Positions 2,196 through 25,095 of a DNA stretch of 34,261 bases are shown piece after piece. Position 1 is the stretch's first letter, and each line of letters opens with the position of its first letter. Source of the stretch: Halanaerobium saccharolyticum subsp. saccharolyticum DSM 6643 (GTDB lineage: Bacteria > Bacillota > Halanaerobiia > Halanaerobiales > Halanaerobiaceae); NCBI RefSeq assembly GCF_000350165.1, contig NZ_CAUI01000004.1, positions 1 to 34,261 of the forward strand, in the 5' to 3' direction. Under the pieces are notes generated by a model. That model did not search any database and was not told the origin of the DNA. It worked only from the letters and a program-made list of their open reading frames with translations. The position numbers and the translations under genes are program-made.

Positions 2196-3266
2196 ATGCA
2201 TGAAAAACTATTTACTCCAGGCCCAACAGAAGTGAGAACAGAGCTATTACAGCAGTTATCAACTGCACAGATTCATCACAGAACTGAAGAATTTTCTCGA
2301 GTTTATGATGATATTCAGGTTAATTTACAGAAACTACTTTATACAGATAATCCAGTTTTATTATTTTCTTCGTCTTCAACAGGTGCAATGGAAGCGGCAG
2401 TGACTAACGGTGTTAAAAAACGCTGCTTAAATTTTGTTAATGGGGCTTTTTCAGATCGTTGGCATCAAATCACTAAAAAAAATGGGGTTCCTTGTGATAA
2501 AGTACAAGTTCCATGGGATCAAGCAATTAAGCCTGAACTAGTAGAAAAAAGACTTAATTCTGGTAATTATGATGCTATTACGGTTGTCTTAAATGAAACT
2601 TCTACAGGTTTGATGAATCCAATAAAAGAAATTGGCGAAGTTGTAAAGAAATTTGATGATGTTTTATTTTTGGTTGATGCTGTATCTGGGATGGCGGGTA
2701 CAGAAATTAGAGTAGATGATTGGGGTATCGATATGTGTCTGGCTGGGGTACAGAAGGCTTTTGCTTTACCAGCTGGTTTAACTGTGGCTTCAGTTAGTAA
2801 AAAATTATTGAAAAGATCAGAAACAGTTGAAAATAGAAGTTATTATTTTAATTTGCCACTTTTATATAAATATCATCAAAGATCTCAGACAAGAACCACT
2901 CCTGCAATACCACAAATATTTGCATTGCAGAAGCAATTAAATGATATTGTAGATGATGAAGGAATTGAAAATAGATTTGAAAGACATAAAGAAATGGCTG
3001 AATATGTTCAAAATTGGGCTTTGAAGTATTTTGATATTTATGCTGAAGAAGGTTATTGGTCAAATACTGTTACCTGTATTGAGAATAATAGGGGTATAGA
3101 TGTTAGTAATTTAATCAATGAACTTGTAGAAAAGTATAACATTAGAATTGCAAATGGTTATGGTGATTTAAAAAATAAAGCTTTTAGAATAGGCCACATG
3201 GGAGATTTAAGTTTGGTTGATATTAAAGGTTTATTAGCAACTATTGAAGATATATTATCTTTATAG
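2196..3266 (+). CDS. Class V PLP-dependent aminotransferase (alanine-glyoxylate / serine-pyruvate / phosphoserine type)
   Basis: 356-residue fold-type I aminotransferase of the alanine-glyoxylate/serine-pyruvate subfamily, near full length for the family. It starts with the N-terminal FTPGPTEV motif. Asp161 in DAVSG should contact the PLP ring nitrogen, and Lys187 in AGVQKAFALPAG is the expected Schiff-base lysine. The ATG is supported by tgaggtg at 2181-2187. In anaerobes that lack canonical serC, proteins of this group next to serA are thought to serve as 3-phosphoserine aminotransferases. The convergent serA supports that role here, but the substrate is inferred. A palindrome, ttcagttt-t-aaactgaa (2153-2169), lies in the leader between a possible -10 (TATAAT, 2110-2115) and the RBS and could be an operator. 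It shares a bidirectional terminator with serA. Confidence 0.88.
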   Translation: MHEKLFTPGPTEVRTELLQQLSTAQIHHRTEEFSRVYDDIQVNLQKLLYTDNPVLLFSSSSTGAMEAAVTNGVKKRCLNFVNGAFSDRWHQITKKNGVPCDKVQVPWDQAIKPELVEKRLNSGNYDAITVVLNETSTGLMNPIKEIGEVVKKFDDVLFLVDAVSGMAGTEIRVDDWGIDMCLAGVQKAFALPAGLTVASVSKKLLKRSETVENRSYYFNLPLLYKYHQRSQTRTTPAIPQIFALQKQLNDIVDDEGIENRFERHKEMAEYVQNWALKYFDIYAEEGYWSNTVTCIENNRGIDVSNLINELVEKYNIRIANGYGDLKNKAFRIGHMGDLSLVDIKGLLATIEDILSL

Positions 3267-3298
3267 TTATTAACAGTATAGTTTTAAAAATTTAAATT

Positions 3299-3331
3299 AA
3301 AAATAGCAGCCAATTTAAGGCTGCTATTTTT
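3299..3331. terminator. Bidirectional terminator between aminotransferase and serA
   Basis: A perfect 13-bp stem (aaaaatagcagcc, 3299-3311, against ggctgctattttt, 3319-3331) with a 7-base loop. A-rich and T-rich flanks let it end transcription from both convergent genes. Confidence 0.9.
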
Positions 3332-3347
3332 AACATTTATATATATT

Positions 3348-4952
3348 TTAGATTTCTAAAAAACATAAATCTTTTACTTTTGTATCTAATTCATCTAATT
3401 GAGTTCTAATTTCTTCCAATATTTCCTTCGATGGTTTAGAATCAATCTGCATCATCATTATAGCATTTCCACCAATTTCTTTACGACCTACCTGCATATT
3501 TGCAATGTTTATATTTGCCTCACCTAAAGTAGATCCAATTTTGCCAATAACTCCTGGTTTATCCTGGTAACTTACTATAATAAATTCTCCAGAGAGGTCT
3601 AAATCAATTCTTAATCCATTGATTTCAATTAATCTAAAACCTATAGGTAAGTAAGTTCCAGCGAGACTATAATTATCAATGTCAGTTTTAAGATTGATTT
3701 TAATTATATTATTTAGTTCACCCTCATTTTGGATTTGGCTTTCTTTGAGAGCAATCCCTCTTTCTTGAGCCACATGCATTGCATTTACTAGATTAATTCT
3801 ATCATCTAAAATTGGTTCTAAAATAGATTTAACTAAACTTAAGGTCATTGGTTTGTGATTATATTGATTAATTTCTCCACCATACTCAACTTCAACAGCT
3901 TCAATTCTTTCGTGTCCCTTCCATTTTGCCATAAAATTACCTAATTTTGTTATCAGATTTATATAGGGCTTAGCCTGATTAAACTCTTGTGGATCCATAG
4001 CTGGTATGTTTAATGGAGATGCAGGTAAATTATTTTTTAATACGGATACAACTTCTTCCGCTGCAGTTATAGAAACATTGTCCATAGCTTCTGTAGTTGT
4101 TCCTCCCAAATGACAGGTCATTATTACCTTATCTTCAAATTTAAGCAGTGGGTTGTTACTTGCTCTTACCGGTTCTTCCTCGTGCACATCAATTGCTGCA
4201 CCGGCTATTTTATTTTTTTCTAATGCCTTAGCTAAAGCTTCAGTATCAACATTTTGACCTCGAGCACAGTTAATAACACGAGCATCATTTTTCATTATTG
4301 CAAACTCTTTATGACTTAGAATATGGTATGTTTCATCAGTCAAAGGAGTATGTAGGGTAATGTAATCGGATTTTTCTAAAACCTCTTTAAATGGTAGTAG
4401 AGAAACATTTATTTTTTCTGCTTTTTTAGGTGATAAATAAGGATCATTAGCAATTACTTTCATACCAAAACTTTGTGCCCTTTTTGCAACTCTGCTTCCA
4501 ATTCTACCAAGGCCAATAATTCCTAAAGTTTTACCGTTGACTTCTACCCCCATATATTTCTTTCTATCCCAGATATTATTGTGTAATGCTTGATTAGCCT
4601 GGGCAATATTTCGAGAAAGAGAAAGCATCATTCCCAATGTATGTTCTACTGCAGAAATTGTATTACCTGTAGGAGTATTAAAAACAAATATTCCATTTTT
4701 AGTTGCTTCATCCAAATCAATATTATCATAACCAGTTCCAGCTCTACCTATAACTTTAAGTTTTTTAGCTTTATTTAATGCTTCTTTATCCAAAAGTGTC
4801 ATGCTGCGCACAATTATTCCATCATAATTACTAATAATTTTCAAAAAATATTCGCGGCCTAACTCTGGCTTAAAATCAACTTCCATTCCTGCTTCTTCTA
4901 AAACGTCAATACCTTTTTGAGCAATATTGTCACTAACTAACACTTTGTACAC
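3348..4952 (-). CDS. serA: D-3-phosphoglycerate dehydrogenase
   Basis: 534-residue long-form enzyme catalysing the first step of serine synthesis (3-phosphoglycerate to 3-phosphohydroxypyruvate, NAD-dependent). The Rossmann motif GLGRIG is at about 147-152. Expected catalytic residues are Arg231 (NCARGQNVD), Glu260 (DVHEEEP) and His281 (TCHLGG). An intervening allosteric substrate-binding-type region follows, and a C-terminal ACT domain (about 461-534) suggests serine feedback. Translation starts at GTG with ggag 9-12 bases upstream. The gene is transcribed towards the aminotransferase and away from the DUF1015 gene. A good promoter lies at 4995-5023. Assignment is secure; feedback control is inferred from the domain. 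Confidence 0.96.
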   Translation of the reverse strand: MYKVLVSDNIAQKGIDVLEEAGMEVDFKPELGREYFLKIISNYDGIIVRSMTLLDKEALNKAKKLKVIGRAGTGYDNIDLDEATKNGIFVFNTPTGNTISAVEHTLGMMLSLSRNIAQANQALHNNIWDRKKYMGVEVNGKTLGIIGLGRIGSRVAKRAQSFGMKVIANDPYLSPKKAEKINVSLLPFKEVLEKSDYITLHTPLTDETYHILSHKEFAIMKNDARVINCARGQNVDTEALAKALEKNKIAGAAIDVHEEEPVRASNNPLLKFEDKVIMTCHLGGTTTEAMDNVSITAAEEVVSVLKNNLPASPLNIPAMDPQEFNQAKPYINLITKLGNFMAKWKGHERIEAVEVEYGGEINQYNHKPMTLSLVKSILEPILDDRINLVNAMHVAQERGIALKESQIQNEGELNNIIKINLKTDIDNYSLAGTYLPIGFRLIEINGLRIDLDLSGEFIIVSYQDKPGVIGKIGSTLGEANINIANMQVGRKEIGGNAIMMMQIDSKPSKEILEEIRTQLDELDTKVKDLCFLEI

Positions 4953-4994
4953 TTATTACCACTCCTTCTCTCTTCTTGCTACTAATTTTTATTA

Positions 4995-5023
4995 ATTATA
5001 TCTAAAAGTAATTGATAAAGCAA
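4995..5023 (-). promoter_or_regulatory. serA promoter
   Basis: On the minus strand TTGCTT (5023-5018) and TATAAT (5000-4995) are separated by exactly 17 bases and lie about 30 bases upstream of the serA RBS. The -35 overlaps aagcaagcgttt, a half-resemblance to LacI-type operators. Confidence 0.6.
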
Positions 5024-5091
5024 GCGTTTAATTCTTTAAAGTGATAAAATTATTATAAAAGACTAATTTTTGTTGTTATTATATTTCAAAC

Positions 5092-5120
5092 TTGCCGTAG
5101 AGCTAATTAAAATATATAAT
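5092..5120 (+). promoter_or_regulatory. Promoter of the DUF1015 gene
   Basis: TTGCCG (5092-5097), 17-base spacer, TATAAT (5115-5120). The predicted start near 5127 leaves a 5' leader of about 15 bases holding little more than the RBS gaggag at 5128-5133. Confidence 0.6.
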
Positions 5121-5141
5121 GAATAAAGAGGAGTGATAAGT

Positions 5142-6425
5142 ATGGCAAAAGTATTTCCATTTAAAGCTTATAGATATAACCAGGAAAAAGTTAAAGATTT
5201 AGAGAAAGTAGTAACCCAACCATATGATAAAATTGATACTAAACTACAAAATAATTATTACGAACAGAGTCCTTATAATATTGTTCGTTTGATTTTAGGG
5301 AAAGAAGAAAATCGTTATCAAAGTGCAGCAAAATATTTAAAAAAGTGGATTAAAGATGAAGTTTTAATTCAAGATCAAAAACCTGGATTTTATATCTATA
5401 CTCAAGAATACGAAGTAGCTGGGGAAAAATTCATTCGCAAAGGTTTTGCGGCTTTAGGGGAGTTAGAAGTTGGTGAAGGTGTAAAAGAACATGAGACTAC
5501 TATGGAAGGCCCTAAGGCTGATCGTTTAAACTTAATTCGAGCAACTGAAGCAAATTTCGGACATATATTTATGCTTTATTCTGATCAAAAAAACGAAATA
5601 AATAATTTATTGATAAAAAAAATGAAAAATGAAGCACTTATAAAGGTTAAAGATGAAGATAAAAATATTCATAAAATCTGGAAGTTAGAAGATGATAAGC
5701 TGATAAAAGAAATAAAAGAAAAAATGGAGAATAAAAATTTATATATCGCTGACGGCCATCATCGTTATCAGACAGCCTTAAATTATCAAAAAGAATGTAT
5801 AGATAAAGGTTGGGAAGCTGATGGGGTAGAAAGTTTTAATCATCGCTTAATGACTTTTATTAATATGGATGATCCAGGTTTAAGAGTATTACCAACTCAC
5901 AGATTGTTATATGGGATAAAAGATTTTAACCTTAATTTATTTCTAAAAAAAGTAGCTGAGGATTTTAGTATAAAAGATTTTGAGAGTAAAGATAAAATGT
6001 ATGAGTATTTAGATGCGAACACAGATAATAAAGTATTTGGTTTTAAAGCAGTAGAAGCTGATAAACATTATGTTTTTGAATTTGAAAATGAGGAAATTTT
6101 AAATGAAATTGAAGAAAAATATTCTAAAGAATACAAGAAATTGGATGTTAGTATTCTGCATAATATTTTATTAGATAAGTATCTTGGCATAGATAAAAAA
6201 GCGCTAGCTGCTAAATCTAATTTAGATTATATTAGATATCGTGATACAGCTCTAAAAAGCCTTGAAAAGGATAAATATCAGGCTGCATTTATTTTAAATC
6301 CAACTTCTGTTAAAGAGGTTAAGGAAATTGCTGATTTTGGTGAAAAAATGCCGCAAAAATCTACAGATTTTTACCCAAAATTATTAACCGGTCTGGTTAT
6401 TAATAAACTTTCAATTAAAAAGTGA
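5142..6425 (+). CDS. DUF1015 family protein, possible serine/phosphoserine-metabolism enzyme
   Basis: 427 residues counted from ATG 5142. That start is preferred over the in-frame GTG at 5133 because gaggag (5128-5133) overlaps the GTG and sits 8 bases before the ATG. Family signatures are TQPYDKI near residue 25-31, a conserved central ADGHHRYQTAL (about 203-213) and VLPTHR (about 249-254). No signal peptide or membrane segment is seen. The DGHHR motif resembles the signature of the ParB/sulfiredoxin-like fold, which includes the free-serine kinases SerK and SbnI. It is divergent from serA and close to a putative phosphoserine aminotransferase, and no phosphoserine phosphatase gene is visible in the window. 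A role in phosphoserine/serine interconversion is therefore an attractive inference. Family membership is firm; function is not established. Confidence 0.85.
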   Translation: MAKVFPFKAYRYNQEKVKDLEKVVTQPYDKIDTKLQNNYYEQSPYNIVRLILGKEENRYQSAAKYLKKWIKDEVLIQDQKPGFYIYTQEYEVAGEKFIRKGFAALGELEVGEGVKEHETTMEGPKADRLNLIRATEANFGHIFMLYSDQKNEINNLLIKKMKNEALIKVKDEDKNIHKIWKLEDDKLIKEIKEKMENKNLYIADGHHRYQTALNYQKECIDKGWEADGVESFNHRLMTFINMDDPGLRVLPTHRLLYGIKDFNLNLFLKKVAEDFSIKDFESKDKMYEYLDANTDNKVFGFKAVEADKHYVFEFENEEILNEIEEKYSKEYKKLDVSILHNILLDKYLGIDKKALAAKSNLDYIRYRDTALKSLEKDKYQAAFILNPTSVKEVKEIADFGEKMPQKSTDFYPKLLTGLVINKLSIKK

Positions 6426-6536: not shown

Positions 6537-7550
6537 ATGTTAGAATACAAAAGGAACATATTAATATATCTGACAGCAATAATCCTTTTAGTCTTACTTG
6601 GATTTGCAGCTTTATTTATAGGATCAAGTGATATTAATTCAAAGGATGTAATTTCTTATATATTTAATAGCAGTGAAGTTTCTGTTTCAATCAGCATCAT
6701 TATTTTTGAAATTAGATTGCCAAGGATTGTTTTAGCTTTTATTGTAGGTGCGGGTTTGGCTGTAGCTGGTTCTGTGTTTCAAGCTATCATAAGAAATCCG
6801 ATGGTTGATCCATATATTATTGGTATTTCTGCTGGCGCTGGTACTGGAGTTATGCTGGCCTTATTTTTAGGTATAGAAATTGCTATTTTTAATCTTAATA
6901 CAATTCCAGTCTTTGCTTTTTTGGGAGCAGCTTTAACTGTTTTAACTGTTTATCAATTGGCCAGGGTCGGCAGAAAATTACCCGTTTTAACTTTCTTATT
7001 AGCTGGAGTTGCAATGAGTTTTATCTTAAATTCGCTTATGTCATTTTTAATGGTGCTTAGAACAGAAAATCTGCAGCAATTAGTATATTGGCTAATGGGA
7101 AGTTTAGCCGGATCATCCTGGAATGATATTAATATGATATTACCTTATTTTTTAGTTGCCTTATTAGTTATAGTTTTTCATTTAAAGGATTTAAATATTT
7201 TACTACTGGGAGAAGAAAGTGCAGCCCATTTAGGATTAAATGTTGAAAGAACAAAAGTCATTTTATTAGGGGCTGCCTCATTGATTACTGCTTCAGTTGT
7301 TTCAGTGAGTGGGAGCATTGGCTTTATTGGATTAGTGGTACCTCATATTACAAGGATGATTATTGGCCCTGACCATAGAAAATTAATACCGCTTGCGGCA
7401 GTAATAGGAGGATCATTTTTGCTGATTGCTGATACAGCAGCAAGAACCTTAATGGCTCCGATGGAATTACCGGTAGGAATAATAACTGCTCTAGCTGGAG
7501 GACCATATTTCATTTATTTATTGCGCAATAAATCTAAAAATATTTGGTGA
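6537..7550 (+). CDS. FecCD/BtuC-type ABC transporter permease (iron complex or corrinoid uptake)
   Basis: About 337 residues with many hydrophobic spans (roughly nine to ten), typical of FecCD/BtuC permeases. Signatures are RLPRIVLAFIVGAGLAVAG, FQAIIRNPMVDPYIIGISAG, and near the C-terminus GLVVPHITRMIIGPDHR, the ATPase coupling region. The ATG at 6537 is preferred over 6528 because the RBS (aagga/ggatgg, 6524-6531) overlaps the earlier codon. The cognate ATPase follows 5 bases after the stop. No substrate-binding protein (BtuF/FepB type) is encoded nearby, so it must be elsewhere or shared. The corrinoid assignment comes from the ATPase fusion next door. A siderophore or haem substrate remains possible. 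Confidence 0.88.
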   Translation: MLEYKRNILIYLTAIILLVLLGFAALFIGSSDINSKDVISYIFNSSEVSVSISIIIFEIRLPRIVLAFIVGAGLAVAGSVFQAIIRNPMVDPYIIGISAGAGTGVMLALFLGIEIAIFNLNTIPVFAFLGAALTVLTVYQLARVGRKLPVLTFLLAGVAMSFILNSLMSFLMVLRTENLQQLVYWLMGSLAGSSWNDINMILPYFLVALLVIVFHLKDLNILLLGEESAAHLGLNVERTKVILLGAASLITASVVSVSGSIGFIGLVVPHITRMIIGPDHRKLIPLAAVIGGSFLLIADTAARTLMAPMELPVGIITALAGGPYFIYLLRNKSKNIW

Positions 7551-7555
7551 AAATT

Positions 7556-8833
7556 ATGTTAAAAACAAATAATATTGAATTTAGTTATAATCAAAAAAAT
7601 ATTCTTAAAGGTATTGATTTACAAATAAATAAAGGTTCTTTTATTGGGATTATTGGTCCTAATGCTTCTGGTAAATCTACTCTTTTAAAAAATATCAGCA
7701 GAACTTTAATAGCTGATAAAGGAACGGTTTATCTTGATAAAAAAATATTAAATGAATATAGTTCTTTAGAATTAGCAAAAAAAATGGCTGTTGTACCTCA
7801 AAATACAGAAATAAGCTTTAATTTTAATGTTTATGATATTATAATGATGGGGAGGCATCCATATCAAAAAAGATGGTCAGGATTAAACGAAGAGGATAAG
7901 AAAATAGTAAAAGAGGTAATGGTAGTTACTGATACTTTGAAATTAAAAAATAAATTAATTAATGAACTATCCGGAGGTGAAAGGCAAAGAGTCATAATAG
8001 CTAGAGCTTTAGCTCAAAAACCGGATATATTATTATTGGATGAACCAACCTCTAACTTAGATATTAATTATCAGGGAGAAATTTATGATTTATTAAAATA
8101 TTTAAATCAGGAATTTAATCTAACTATCATTACAGTATCTCATGATTTGAATTTAACTGCCCAATATTGTGAAGAGTTATTATTACTTAAAGAGGGGGAA
8201 ATATTTGCTGCTGGTTCAGCAGCAAAAGTATTAACTGAAGAAAATATAAAGAAAGTTTATAAGGCTGAGGTTTTAATAAAAATGAATCCTATTTCTGAGA
8301 AACCATTTGTTACTGTAATTCCTGAAGCAAATAACAAATTTAGAAAAGAAAGATATAAAGATTTTAAAATACATGTAATAGCAGGTGGAGGAACAGCCCA
8401 AAATTTTCTATATAAATTAGATAATGCAGGCTATCCATTAAGTATCGGGGTCTTAAATGTTGGTGATGCTGATTGGCAGGTAGCAAAAGAACTTGGGATC
8501 GAAATTGTTGAGGCACCACCATTTATAGATATTTCTAGGAAAGCAATTGAAAAAAATAGAAAATTAATTCAAAAGTCAGATTTGGTTATTTTAAGTGACT
8601 TACCATTTGGACATGGAAATCTTGCTAATTTAGAGATTCTTCTTGATTTCCCCAAAAAGAAAAAGGTTCTTTTTTCGAATCATAGTATTAAAAAAAGGGA
8701 TTATATTGAAGGAAAAGCGGAATTAATCTGGAATAAGATAATAATGGAAGATGAAAATGTTATTTTGTTAAAAGATAAAAATAATTTAATAAATAAAGTC
8801 AAGGAATTGGAAAACGTGGAGATGGAGATGTGA
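7556..8833 (+). CDS. ABC transporter ATPase with C-terminal extra domain (BtuD/FecE type)
   Basis: 425 residues from ATG 7556 (RBS ggtga overlapping the permease stop); TTG 7544 and GTG 7547 are alternatives. Residues 1-250 are a standard FecE/BtuD ATPase: Walker A GPNASGKST (34-42), Q-loop near 82, signature LSGGE (138-142), Walker B ILLLDEP (158-164), H-loop His196. The remaining 155 or so residues (270-425) form an extra domain with a glycine-rich HVIAGGGTAQNFLYKL start, GVLNVGDADWQVA and EAPPFIDIS motifs. It looks like a Rossmann-like nucleotide-binding fold. I recall this extension from putative corrinoid ABC ATPases of archaea and anaerobes; its function is not known to me. The stop overlaps the start region of the next gene, suggesting translational coupling. 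Confidence 0.88.
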   Translation: MLKTNNIEFSYNQKNILKGIDLQINKGSFIGIIGPNASGKSTLLKNISRTLIADKGTVYLDKKILNEYSSLELAKKMAVVPQNTEISFNFNVYDIIMMGRHPYQKRWSGLNEEDKKIVKEVMVVTDTLKLKNKLINELSGGERQRVIIARALAQKPDILLLDEPTSNLDINYQGEIYDLLKYLNQEFNLTIITVSHDLNLTAQYCEELLLLKEGEIFAAGSAAKVLTEENIKKVYKAEVLIKMNPISEKPFVTVIPEANNKFRKERYKDFKIHVIAGGGTAQNFLYKLDNAGYPLSIGVLNVGDADWQVAKELGIEIVEAPPFIDISRKAIEKNRKLIQKSDLVILSDLPFGHGNLANLEILLDFPKKKKVLFSNHSIKKRDYIEGKAELIWNKIIMEDENVILLKDKNNLINKVKELENVEMEM

Positions 8834-9411: not shown

Positions 9412-9459
9412 AGTTTTATAGGTTAATTTTATTTGAATAATATAATGGGAGTGATGAAT

Positions 9460-10110
9460 ATGGCAAAAGAAATTAAAGCTTTTATCTTTGATCTTGACGG
9501 TGTAATTACAGATACAGCAGAATATCATTATAAAAGTTGGCAAAGTTTGGCGGATGAAGAAGACTTGTTTTTTAACCGTGAAGTTAATGAAAAATTACGT
9601 GGAGTTTCTAGAATGGCTTCTTTAGAAATAATTTTAGATGGTAAAGAAGTTGATGAAGATACAAAAAAAGAATGGACAGATAGAAAAAATAAATATTATC
9701 AAAAATATTTAGAAGAGATAACTAAAGAAAACATTTTAGATGATATGGAAGCTAAATTAGAAAGACTAAAAAATGAGGGCTATAAAATTGCTGTAGGATC
9801 ATCAAGCAGAAATGCAAGAAAAGTTTTAAAACAGTTAAAAATATATGATATGTTTGATGCGATTTCAGATGGTAATAGTGTAGAAAATGCAAAACCAGCG
9901 CCAGATTTATTTCTACATACTGCTAGAAATCTTGGGGTTGAGCCAGAAGAATGTGTTGTTTTAGAAGACGCAGAATCTGGCGTAGAAGCCGCACTAGCTG
10001 CTAATATGAAAGCAGTTGGAGTAGGTCCTGAAGCTAGAGTTGGAAAAGCAAACTTAGTTTATGGAAACGTAGATTCCATAGATTTTGATGAAATTTTAGA
10101 AAAATTATAA
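9460..10110 (+). CDS. pgmB: HAD-superfamily hydrolase, beta-phosphoglucomutase-like
   Basis: 216 residues, the usual size of beta-phosphoglucomutase. The ATG at 9460 is chosen because gggag (9447-9451) lies 8 bases upstream; the frame is open to TTG 9433. HAD motif I is FDLDGVITDT with Asp11 as nucleophile and Asp13 as acid/base. Motif II is GSSSRNA, motif III the lysine in ENAKPAPDLF, motif IV LEDAESGVEAALAA. The cap begins with HYKSW, as in PgmB. It would convert beta-glucose-1-phosphate, made by disaccharide phosphorylases, to glucose-6-phosphate. The LacI regulator and MsmX-type ATPase downstream fit that pathway, although no phosphorylase gene is present. A different sugar-phosphate phosphatase specificity cannot be ruled out. 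Confidence 0.8.
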   Translation: MAKEIKAFIFDLDGVITDTAEYHYKSWQSLADEEDLFFNREVNEKLRGVSRMASLEIILDGKEVDEDTKKEWTDRKNKYYQKYLEEITKENILDDMEAKLERLKNEGYKIAVGSSSRNARKVLKQLKIYDMFDAISDGNSVENAKPAPDLFLHTARNLGVEPEECVVLEDAESGVEAALAANMKAVGVGPEARVGKANLVYGNVDSIDFDEILEKL

Positions 10111-24996: not shown

Positions 24997-25095
24997 GTGA
25001 TAGAGTAGACAGGAGGCGTAGAGTGTTCAAAGATGGGACGTTGCTTTGAAACGAAAGCTTGTTAGCTGCGGTCTCCTTGTCGCGTCCGCTGTCAC
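24997..25095 (+). promoter_or_regulatory. Tetrahydrofolate (THF) riboswitch
   Basis: The order of conserved blocks matches the folT-type THF riboswitch: gagtaga (25003-25009), gcgtagagtg, a P3 hairpin (ttcaaag/ctttgaa) with a gggacg loop, acgaaagc, tgcggt and cgtccgct. P1 pairs gtgatag (24997-25003) with ctgtcac (25089-25095). The pseudoknot is kept by covariation: ggacg (25036-25040) with cgtcc (25083-25087). Downstream, caccaaag/ctttggtg (25093-25118) shares bases with P1, and cctcttt (25104-25110) can pair with aaagagg (25142-25148) beside the RBS. Control at translation initiation is therefore likely. Confidence 0.92.

Follow-up and report, generated by a model that had tools for sequence, protein, structure and literature searches.

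What might a protein of a family without assigned function, DUF1015, do beside serA in a locus in which no phosphoserine phosphatase is visible? The question is raised by positions 2196-6425 of a 34,261-nucleotide stretch of Halanaerobium saccharolyticum subsp. saccharolyticum DSM 6643, which was analysed as a whole and is called the window here. A preliminary description of the locus had named a class V aminotransferase gene, serA and a divergently transcribed DUF1015 gene, and all three were located where it had placed them. At its 5' end the window holds the tail of an rRNA operon together with a tRNA array, followed by the aminotransferase gene, serA, the DUF1015 gene and a BtuC/BtuD-type transporter. 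The features of the locus are the following:

2196-3266, + strand: class V aminotransferase (PF00266, E 7e-27; no NCBIfam equivalog reached)
3297-3334, both strands: bidirectional terminator-like hairpin with a stem of 15-16 bp
3348-4952, - strand: serA, D-3-phosphoglycerate dehydrogenase (TIGR01327, 607 bits against a cut-off of 454)
5092-5120, + strand: predicted promoter-like sequence TTGCCG-N17-TATAAT before the DUF1015 gene
5142-6425, + strand: DUF1015 gene with a product of 427 aa (PF06245, 282 bits against a curated cut-off of 25.8)

The aminotransferase is probably a SerC-type phosphoserine aminotransferase, and its homologues adjoin SerA and DUF1015 in many genomes. Its gene converges with serA at the hairpin. 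The SerA protein of the window carries the intervening (PGDH_inter) and ACT domains, and its gene diverges from that of DUF1015 across a gap of ~190 bp. The TTGC and TATAAT elements of the putative promoter are kept in all five other genomes of the genus that were aligned, the fifth sequence being shorter. Translation of DUF1015 most likely starts at the ATG at 5142, which stands behind GGAGTG, rather than at the GTG at 5133. The divergent and adjacent arrangement of DUF1015 and serA was seen in 5/5 fetched genomes of the genus, and the aminotransferase gene was present on four of the fetched pieces. In two relatives from the genus (L172:7136-8296 and L174:2879-4042), a gene for an MFS transporter, possibly an amino-acid exporter or importer, lies between the aminotransferase gene and serA, and a tandem pair of serA genes, 90% and 72% identical to the window SerA, stands beside DUF1015 in L175:5551-8919.

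The window protein is a clear member of PF06245 (COG4198), a family to which Pfam assigns no function, and has no match among the NCBIfam models. Half of the phylum genomes sampled carry DUF1015, which is scattered among numerous bacterial phyla and also occurs in some archaea. The following elements were distinguished within the gene:

5145-5384, + strand: N-terminal extension of ~80 residues without counterpart in SerK, holding a conserved PYD (5220-5228)
5490-5501, + strand: H-E-x-T motif, model residues 116-119, proposed equivalent of SerK H29-E30
5745-5765, + strand: IADGHHR motif, model residues 201-207, equivalent of SerK DGHHR 69-73
6348-6380, + strand: MPxKSTxFxPK motif, model residues 402-412, with K-S-T equivalent to SerK K221-T222-T223

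The conservation of these elements was examined in 104 diverse homologues. The histidine of H-E-x-T was present in 104/104 sequences and its glutamate and threonine in 102/104 each, the K and T of KST as well as the following F and PK were 98-100% conserved, and the PYD of the extension reached 98-99%. The preliminary description had called the DGHHR motif conserved, and since ADGHHR is kept at 98-100% in these homologues, it is not a product of chance. The HE, DGHHR and KST motifs are near-invariant in both of the clades (A and B) described below, which suits one conserved chemistry. A distant PF06245 subgroup (L048:1804-3177 and relatives in L051, L052 and L053) has TExT, GDGNHS and RKTF in place of HExT, ADGHHR and KSTxF, and possibly represents a paralogue with a different substrate.

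The structure of the window protein was predicted by AlphaFold2 with 27 homologues (pLDDT 93.8, pTM 0.92), and a second model was obtained for a clade A protein, L060 (18 sequences, pLDDT 94.5). The comparison with SerK and SbnI that the preliminary description had proposed placed these proteins first for both models. In the Foldseek search of the PDB, ranks 1-9 were occupied by six SerK-type and three SbnI entries, with E values from 2e-8 to 3e-3 for the window model and from 5e-9 to 8e-6 for L060; rank 10 was noise after an abrupt drop. As the same nine structures came out on top for the second subfamily, the match to SerK is a property of the family. VIA-align superposed the window model on SerK with a Z score of 14.6 over 230 of the 240 SerK residues and the L060 model with a Z score of 13.7 over 223 residues, both values being those of predicted models. 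The Z scores of the two models against SbnI were 11.6-12.3, those against sulfiredoxin were ~5 (5.2 over 99 residues), and canonical ParB reached 3-4.4 against the clade A model over 72-89 aligned residues. The VIA alignments of SerK mostly start at residue 80-91 of the DUF1015 model, and residues 1-80 of the model, like a segment that lies between HE and DGHHR, are additional to SerK. It should be noted that the identity between DUF1015 and SerK is ~15% and the rmsd ~5 Å, which counts against reading the protein as a kinase. A library of viral folds contained no match for the DUF1015 model at E 0.001.

The relation was also traced by sequence profiles. When the profile of 27 DUF1015 homologues was compared with 177,635 PDB sequences, the four best matches were SerK entries, the best of them (1vk1) with an E value of 0.016, which is marginal alone; the alignment to SerK in this search included the DGHHR motif. 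SerK was missed in the PDB search when a narrower profile, built mainly from clade A sequences, was used, and single-sequence phmmer with DUF1015 against the PDB gave nothing useful. Profile-profile comparison (hhalign) of DUF1015 with two SerK sequences as in the PDB gave a probability of 93.6% and an E value of 2e-7, the strongest part being the C-terminal region that ends in K-[ST]-T; this region is absent from the shorter sulfiredoxin structures. Under relaxed settings, DGHHR paired with DGHHR and H116-E117 with H29-E30 of SerK (PHE) at low local confidence, and a second, independent sub-alignment, likewise of low confidence, brought the HE helix and strand into the identical register. DGHHR and K-[ST]-T, and HE under this tentative pairing, are colinear between the two proteins, and residue 30 of SerK is the position substituted in the E30A and E30Q entries of the PDB.

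DUF1015 shares with SerK, the archaeal ADP-dependent enzyme TK0378 (PDB 5x0b-k, 1vk1), a fold predicted over nearly the full length and the colinear motifs DGHHR and K-[ST]-T, with HE as a proposed third. It differs from SerK in the N-terminal extension with PYD, in an insertion that sets HE and DGHHR 86 residues apart instead of 39, and in its distribution, which is mainly bacterial and very widespread, whereas SerK is archaeal. SbnI, a free-serine kinase of staphyloferrin B synthesis that has been termed a serine-kinase homologue (PMC12704722), has the same fold but belongs to a siderophore context and is 9-14% identical to DUF1015. Sulfiredoxin and the ParB N-domain have a small nucleotide-binding core in common with DUF1015 (Z 3 to 5 over ~70-100 residues), and sulfiredoxin is without the C-terminal half of SerK and DUF1015. 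The HAD phosphatase SerB is unrelated in fold and would share the metabolite. We consider it almost certain that DUF1015 is homologous to SerK; fold, profile, catalytic motifs and gene neighbourhood all lend good support to the kinship with SerK and SbnI suggested in the preliminary description. Sequence and models together suggest that DUF1015 forms a remote bacterial branch of the SerK/SbnI group of free-serine kinases. No paper linking DUF1015 or COG4198 to SerK or to a serine kinase was found in the open-access literature searched, and the priority of the relation is uncertain.

SerK phosphorylates free serine with ADP at a kcat of about 200 per second and is inactive on threonine, homoserine and a peptide (PMC5120207). 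In Desulfurococcales, serK lies near genes for 3-phosphoglycerate dehydrogenase and an aminotransferase, and this trio was proposed to cooperate in serine assimilation; the authors saw no clear-cut bacterial homologues of SerK (PMC5120207). The DUF1015 locus repeats this neighbourhood in bacteria. The modelled fold and the motifs held in common with SerK and the gene linkage are the observations on which the proposed function is built. Among 107 DUF1015 loci, picked by profile score and spread and not at random, the commonest neighbour was a SerA-type dehydrogenase gene, which almost always lay immediately beside DUF1015; class V and SerC aminotransferase genes came next. The FastTree phylogeny of 108 DUF1015 proteins contained a clade A, mostly with the order aminotransferase-serA-DUF1015 on a single strand, and a broad clade B, which includes the window protein and is mostly without serA adjacency, a finding that counts against the kinase. 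The serA-linked members of clade B come from Bacillota, Planctomycetota, Chloroflexota and Gemmatimonadota, and the linkage changed at least 10 times on the tree, at least 5 of these changes being forced by well-supported (starred) branches. With the window left out and the other genes of the same loci as the control, SerA or the aminotransferase accounted for 9/265 clade B genes at most two positions from DUF1015 versus 0/511 genes further away (p 6e-5). In five clade B loci (L040, L057, L074, L078 and L081), a gene for a PHP-domain protein (PF02811 for L040) is divergent beside DUF1015; a PHP phosphatase could be a candidate for the phosphoserine phosphatase.

The two proteins also tend to occur in the same genomes. 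In the 59 genomes of the window's class, DUF1015 and SerA occurred together in 18, DUF1015 alone in none, SerA alone in 18 and neither in 23 (Fisher p 2e-5, shared ancestry ignored). The corresponding counts for the 299 genomes of the phylum were 129/19/90/61 (p 6e-8, likewise ignoring shared ancestry), and in the genus 10 genomes had both and 2 had neither. In some DUF1015 genomes of the class, serA lies far off, for example at ~80 kb. In six loci from class members that are without DUF1015 (L182, L183, L184, L186, L187 and L188), the aminotransferase-serA pair is followed by a gene for a protein of 424-428 aa, which in L182 is seryl-tRNA synthetase.

The preliminary description had noticed no phosphoserine phosphatase, and this holds for the window and for the complete genome with respect to both the SerB and the PspA type. 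The best score in the genome for canonical SerB (TIGR00338) was 35.9 bits against a cut-off of 144, and the sole PF00300 protein, a GpmA-type mutase, scored 64.7 bits against the PspA-type cut-off of 350 (NF045917). The beta-phosphoglucomutase encoded at 9433-10110 was considered as the phosphatase and ruled out by its family score. A canonical serB, together with a fold unlike that of SerK and a lack of activity on serine or phosphoserine, had been named as evidence against the proposal; no SerB scored over the cut-off, and the model resembles SerK at the Z score of 14.6. Meanwhile, canonical serB was present in 1/299 genomes of the phylum and missing from the other 298, DUF1015 present or not, and several class relatives with SerA and without DUF1015 had no SerB-like PF12710 match at all. 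As SerB is missing both with and without DUF1015, its absence is uninformative on DUF1015, and we rejected it as evidence for the role of the protein. Of the co-occurrence that had been expected, the part concerning SerA was borne out and the part concerning the absence of serB was not; similarly, the proposed place of DUF1015 in the phosphoserine pathway retains its link to serine through adjacency and co-occurrence and loses the argument from the missing serB. Another, uncharacterised phosphatase, e.g., another HAD protein, may perform the phosphoserine step.

We consider it fairly probable that DUF1015 acts on serine or phosphoserine. The kinase direction is the likeliest main role, predicted with about even confidence, and is favoured because of the homology to SerK and its precedent (PMC5120207). 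DUF1015 would then be an elongated bacterial relative of SerK that moves a phosphoryl group between a nucleotide, perhaps ADP or ATP, and free L-serine, its presumed substrate. In this putative mechanism, E117, a glutamate of the SerK residue-30 type, would work at the hydroxyl group of serine, the phosphates of the nucleotide would be bound by ADGHHR, and the active site would be completed by K-S-T near the C-terminus. The O-phosphoserine formed could be converted by the adjoining aminotransferase and SerA to 3-phosphohydroxypyruvate and then to 3-phosphoglycerate, and the locus would give the cell a way to channel serine into its central metabolism. The genome also encodes a serine dehydratase and a serine acetyltransferase (cysE); serine catabolism as such and cysteine synthesis thus need no DUF1015, a point against the kinase reading, and the protein would add a route for serine without being its sole outlet. 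As cysE is present, cysteine synthesis from phosphoserine is unlikely as the main role here. The widest form of the proposal, in which a bacterial free-serine kinase branch serves a reversible SerC/SerA route between serine and 3-phosphoglycerate and fills the phosphatase step in some lineages, is put forward tentatively and is itself rather doubtful.

The main alternative is that DUF1015 works in the opposite direction and dephosphorylates phosphoserine, passing the phosphate to AMP, ADP or water and replacing SerB where it is absent. The clade A order aminotransferase-serA-DUF1015 puts the gene at a place where serB might sit, the genome is without canonical SerB and PspA, and 450 gut genomes have SerA and SerC with no known phosphoserine phosphatase (PMC9026213). 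However, the phylum-wide lack of canonical SerB is irrespective of DUF1015, and the 18 class members with SerA and no DUF1015 include several also without a PF12710 match; these genomes must therefore possess some other phosphatase. ATP and ADP are better phosphate donors than phosphoserine, so net transfer to a nucleotide would be uphill, though chemically possible. Nor is the SerK fold known to serve as a phosphatase, and we regard this alternative as unlikely.

A different task for the SerK fold is somewhat less improbable than a phosphatase, yet still a minority view: DUF1015 could phosphorylate some other small molecule or be a nucleotide- and serine-binding regulator, its linkage to serA then reflecting regulation. 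Most clade B members lie away from serine genes, one PF06245 subgroup has changed motifs such as GDGNHS, and the ParB/Srx fold binds diverse NTPs in many roles, binding alone being no proof of function; the paper that describes this calls SbnI a serine-kinase homologue (PMC12704722). The almost invariant HE, DGHHR and KST motifs across both clades and the origin of the serA linkage on separate branches speak against it. That DUF1015 stands beside serA by coincidence and is unrelated to serine is very improbable and is already disfavoured: most clade B genomes show no adjacency and some class members have serA far away, e.g., at ~80 kb, but SerA and the aminotransferase are enriched beside DUF1015 over the other genes of the loci, the two proteins are jointly present or absent in the genus, and DUF1015 is structurally akin to a serine kinase.

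The placement near SerK gives this large family a specific and cheap test, serine plus nucleotide, which concerns thousands of genes. It bears on the assimilation of serine through phosphorylation in bacteria and on the handling of phosphoserine in hundreds of Firmicutes that have SerA and SerC and no known phosphatase.

A glycine riboswitch has been linked to COG4198 in metagenomes (PMC2211319), which could suggest a biosynthetic setting and counts against the serine kinase. No glycine riboswitch was found before DUF1015 in the window, in 30 loci at the gathering score, in 7 DUF1015 loci at a permissive threshold, or near DUF1015 among the phylum matches listed, and the published link was not reproduced in these sets. 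In six genomes (G016, G017, G090, G125, G288 and G004), glycine riboswitches lie ~1.5-3 kb upstream of a SerA gene on the matching strand; in several Bacillota, serC-serA may thus be controlled by glycine. Elsewhere in the window, a tetrahydrofolate riboswitch was detected at 24999-25093 (+ strand, 72.9 bits), possibly with a one-carbon metabolism gene 3' of it. Directly 3' of DUF1015 and BtuC, a BtuD-like ATPase is encoded at 7544-8833 (+ strand), and its C-terminal extension resembles the corrinoid ATPase model PRK09536.
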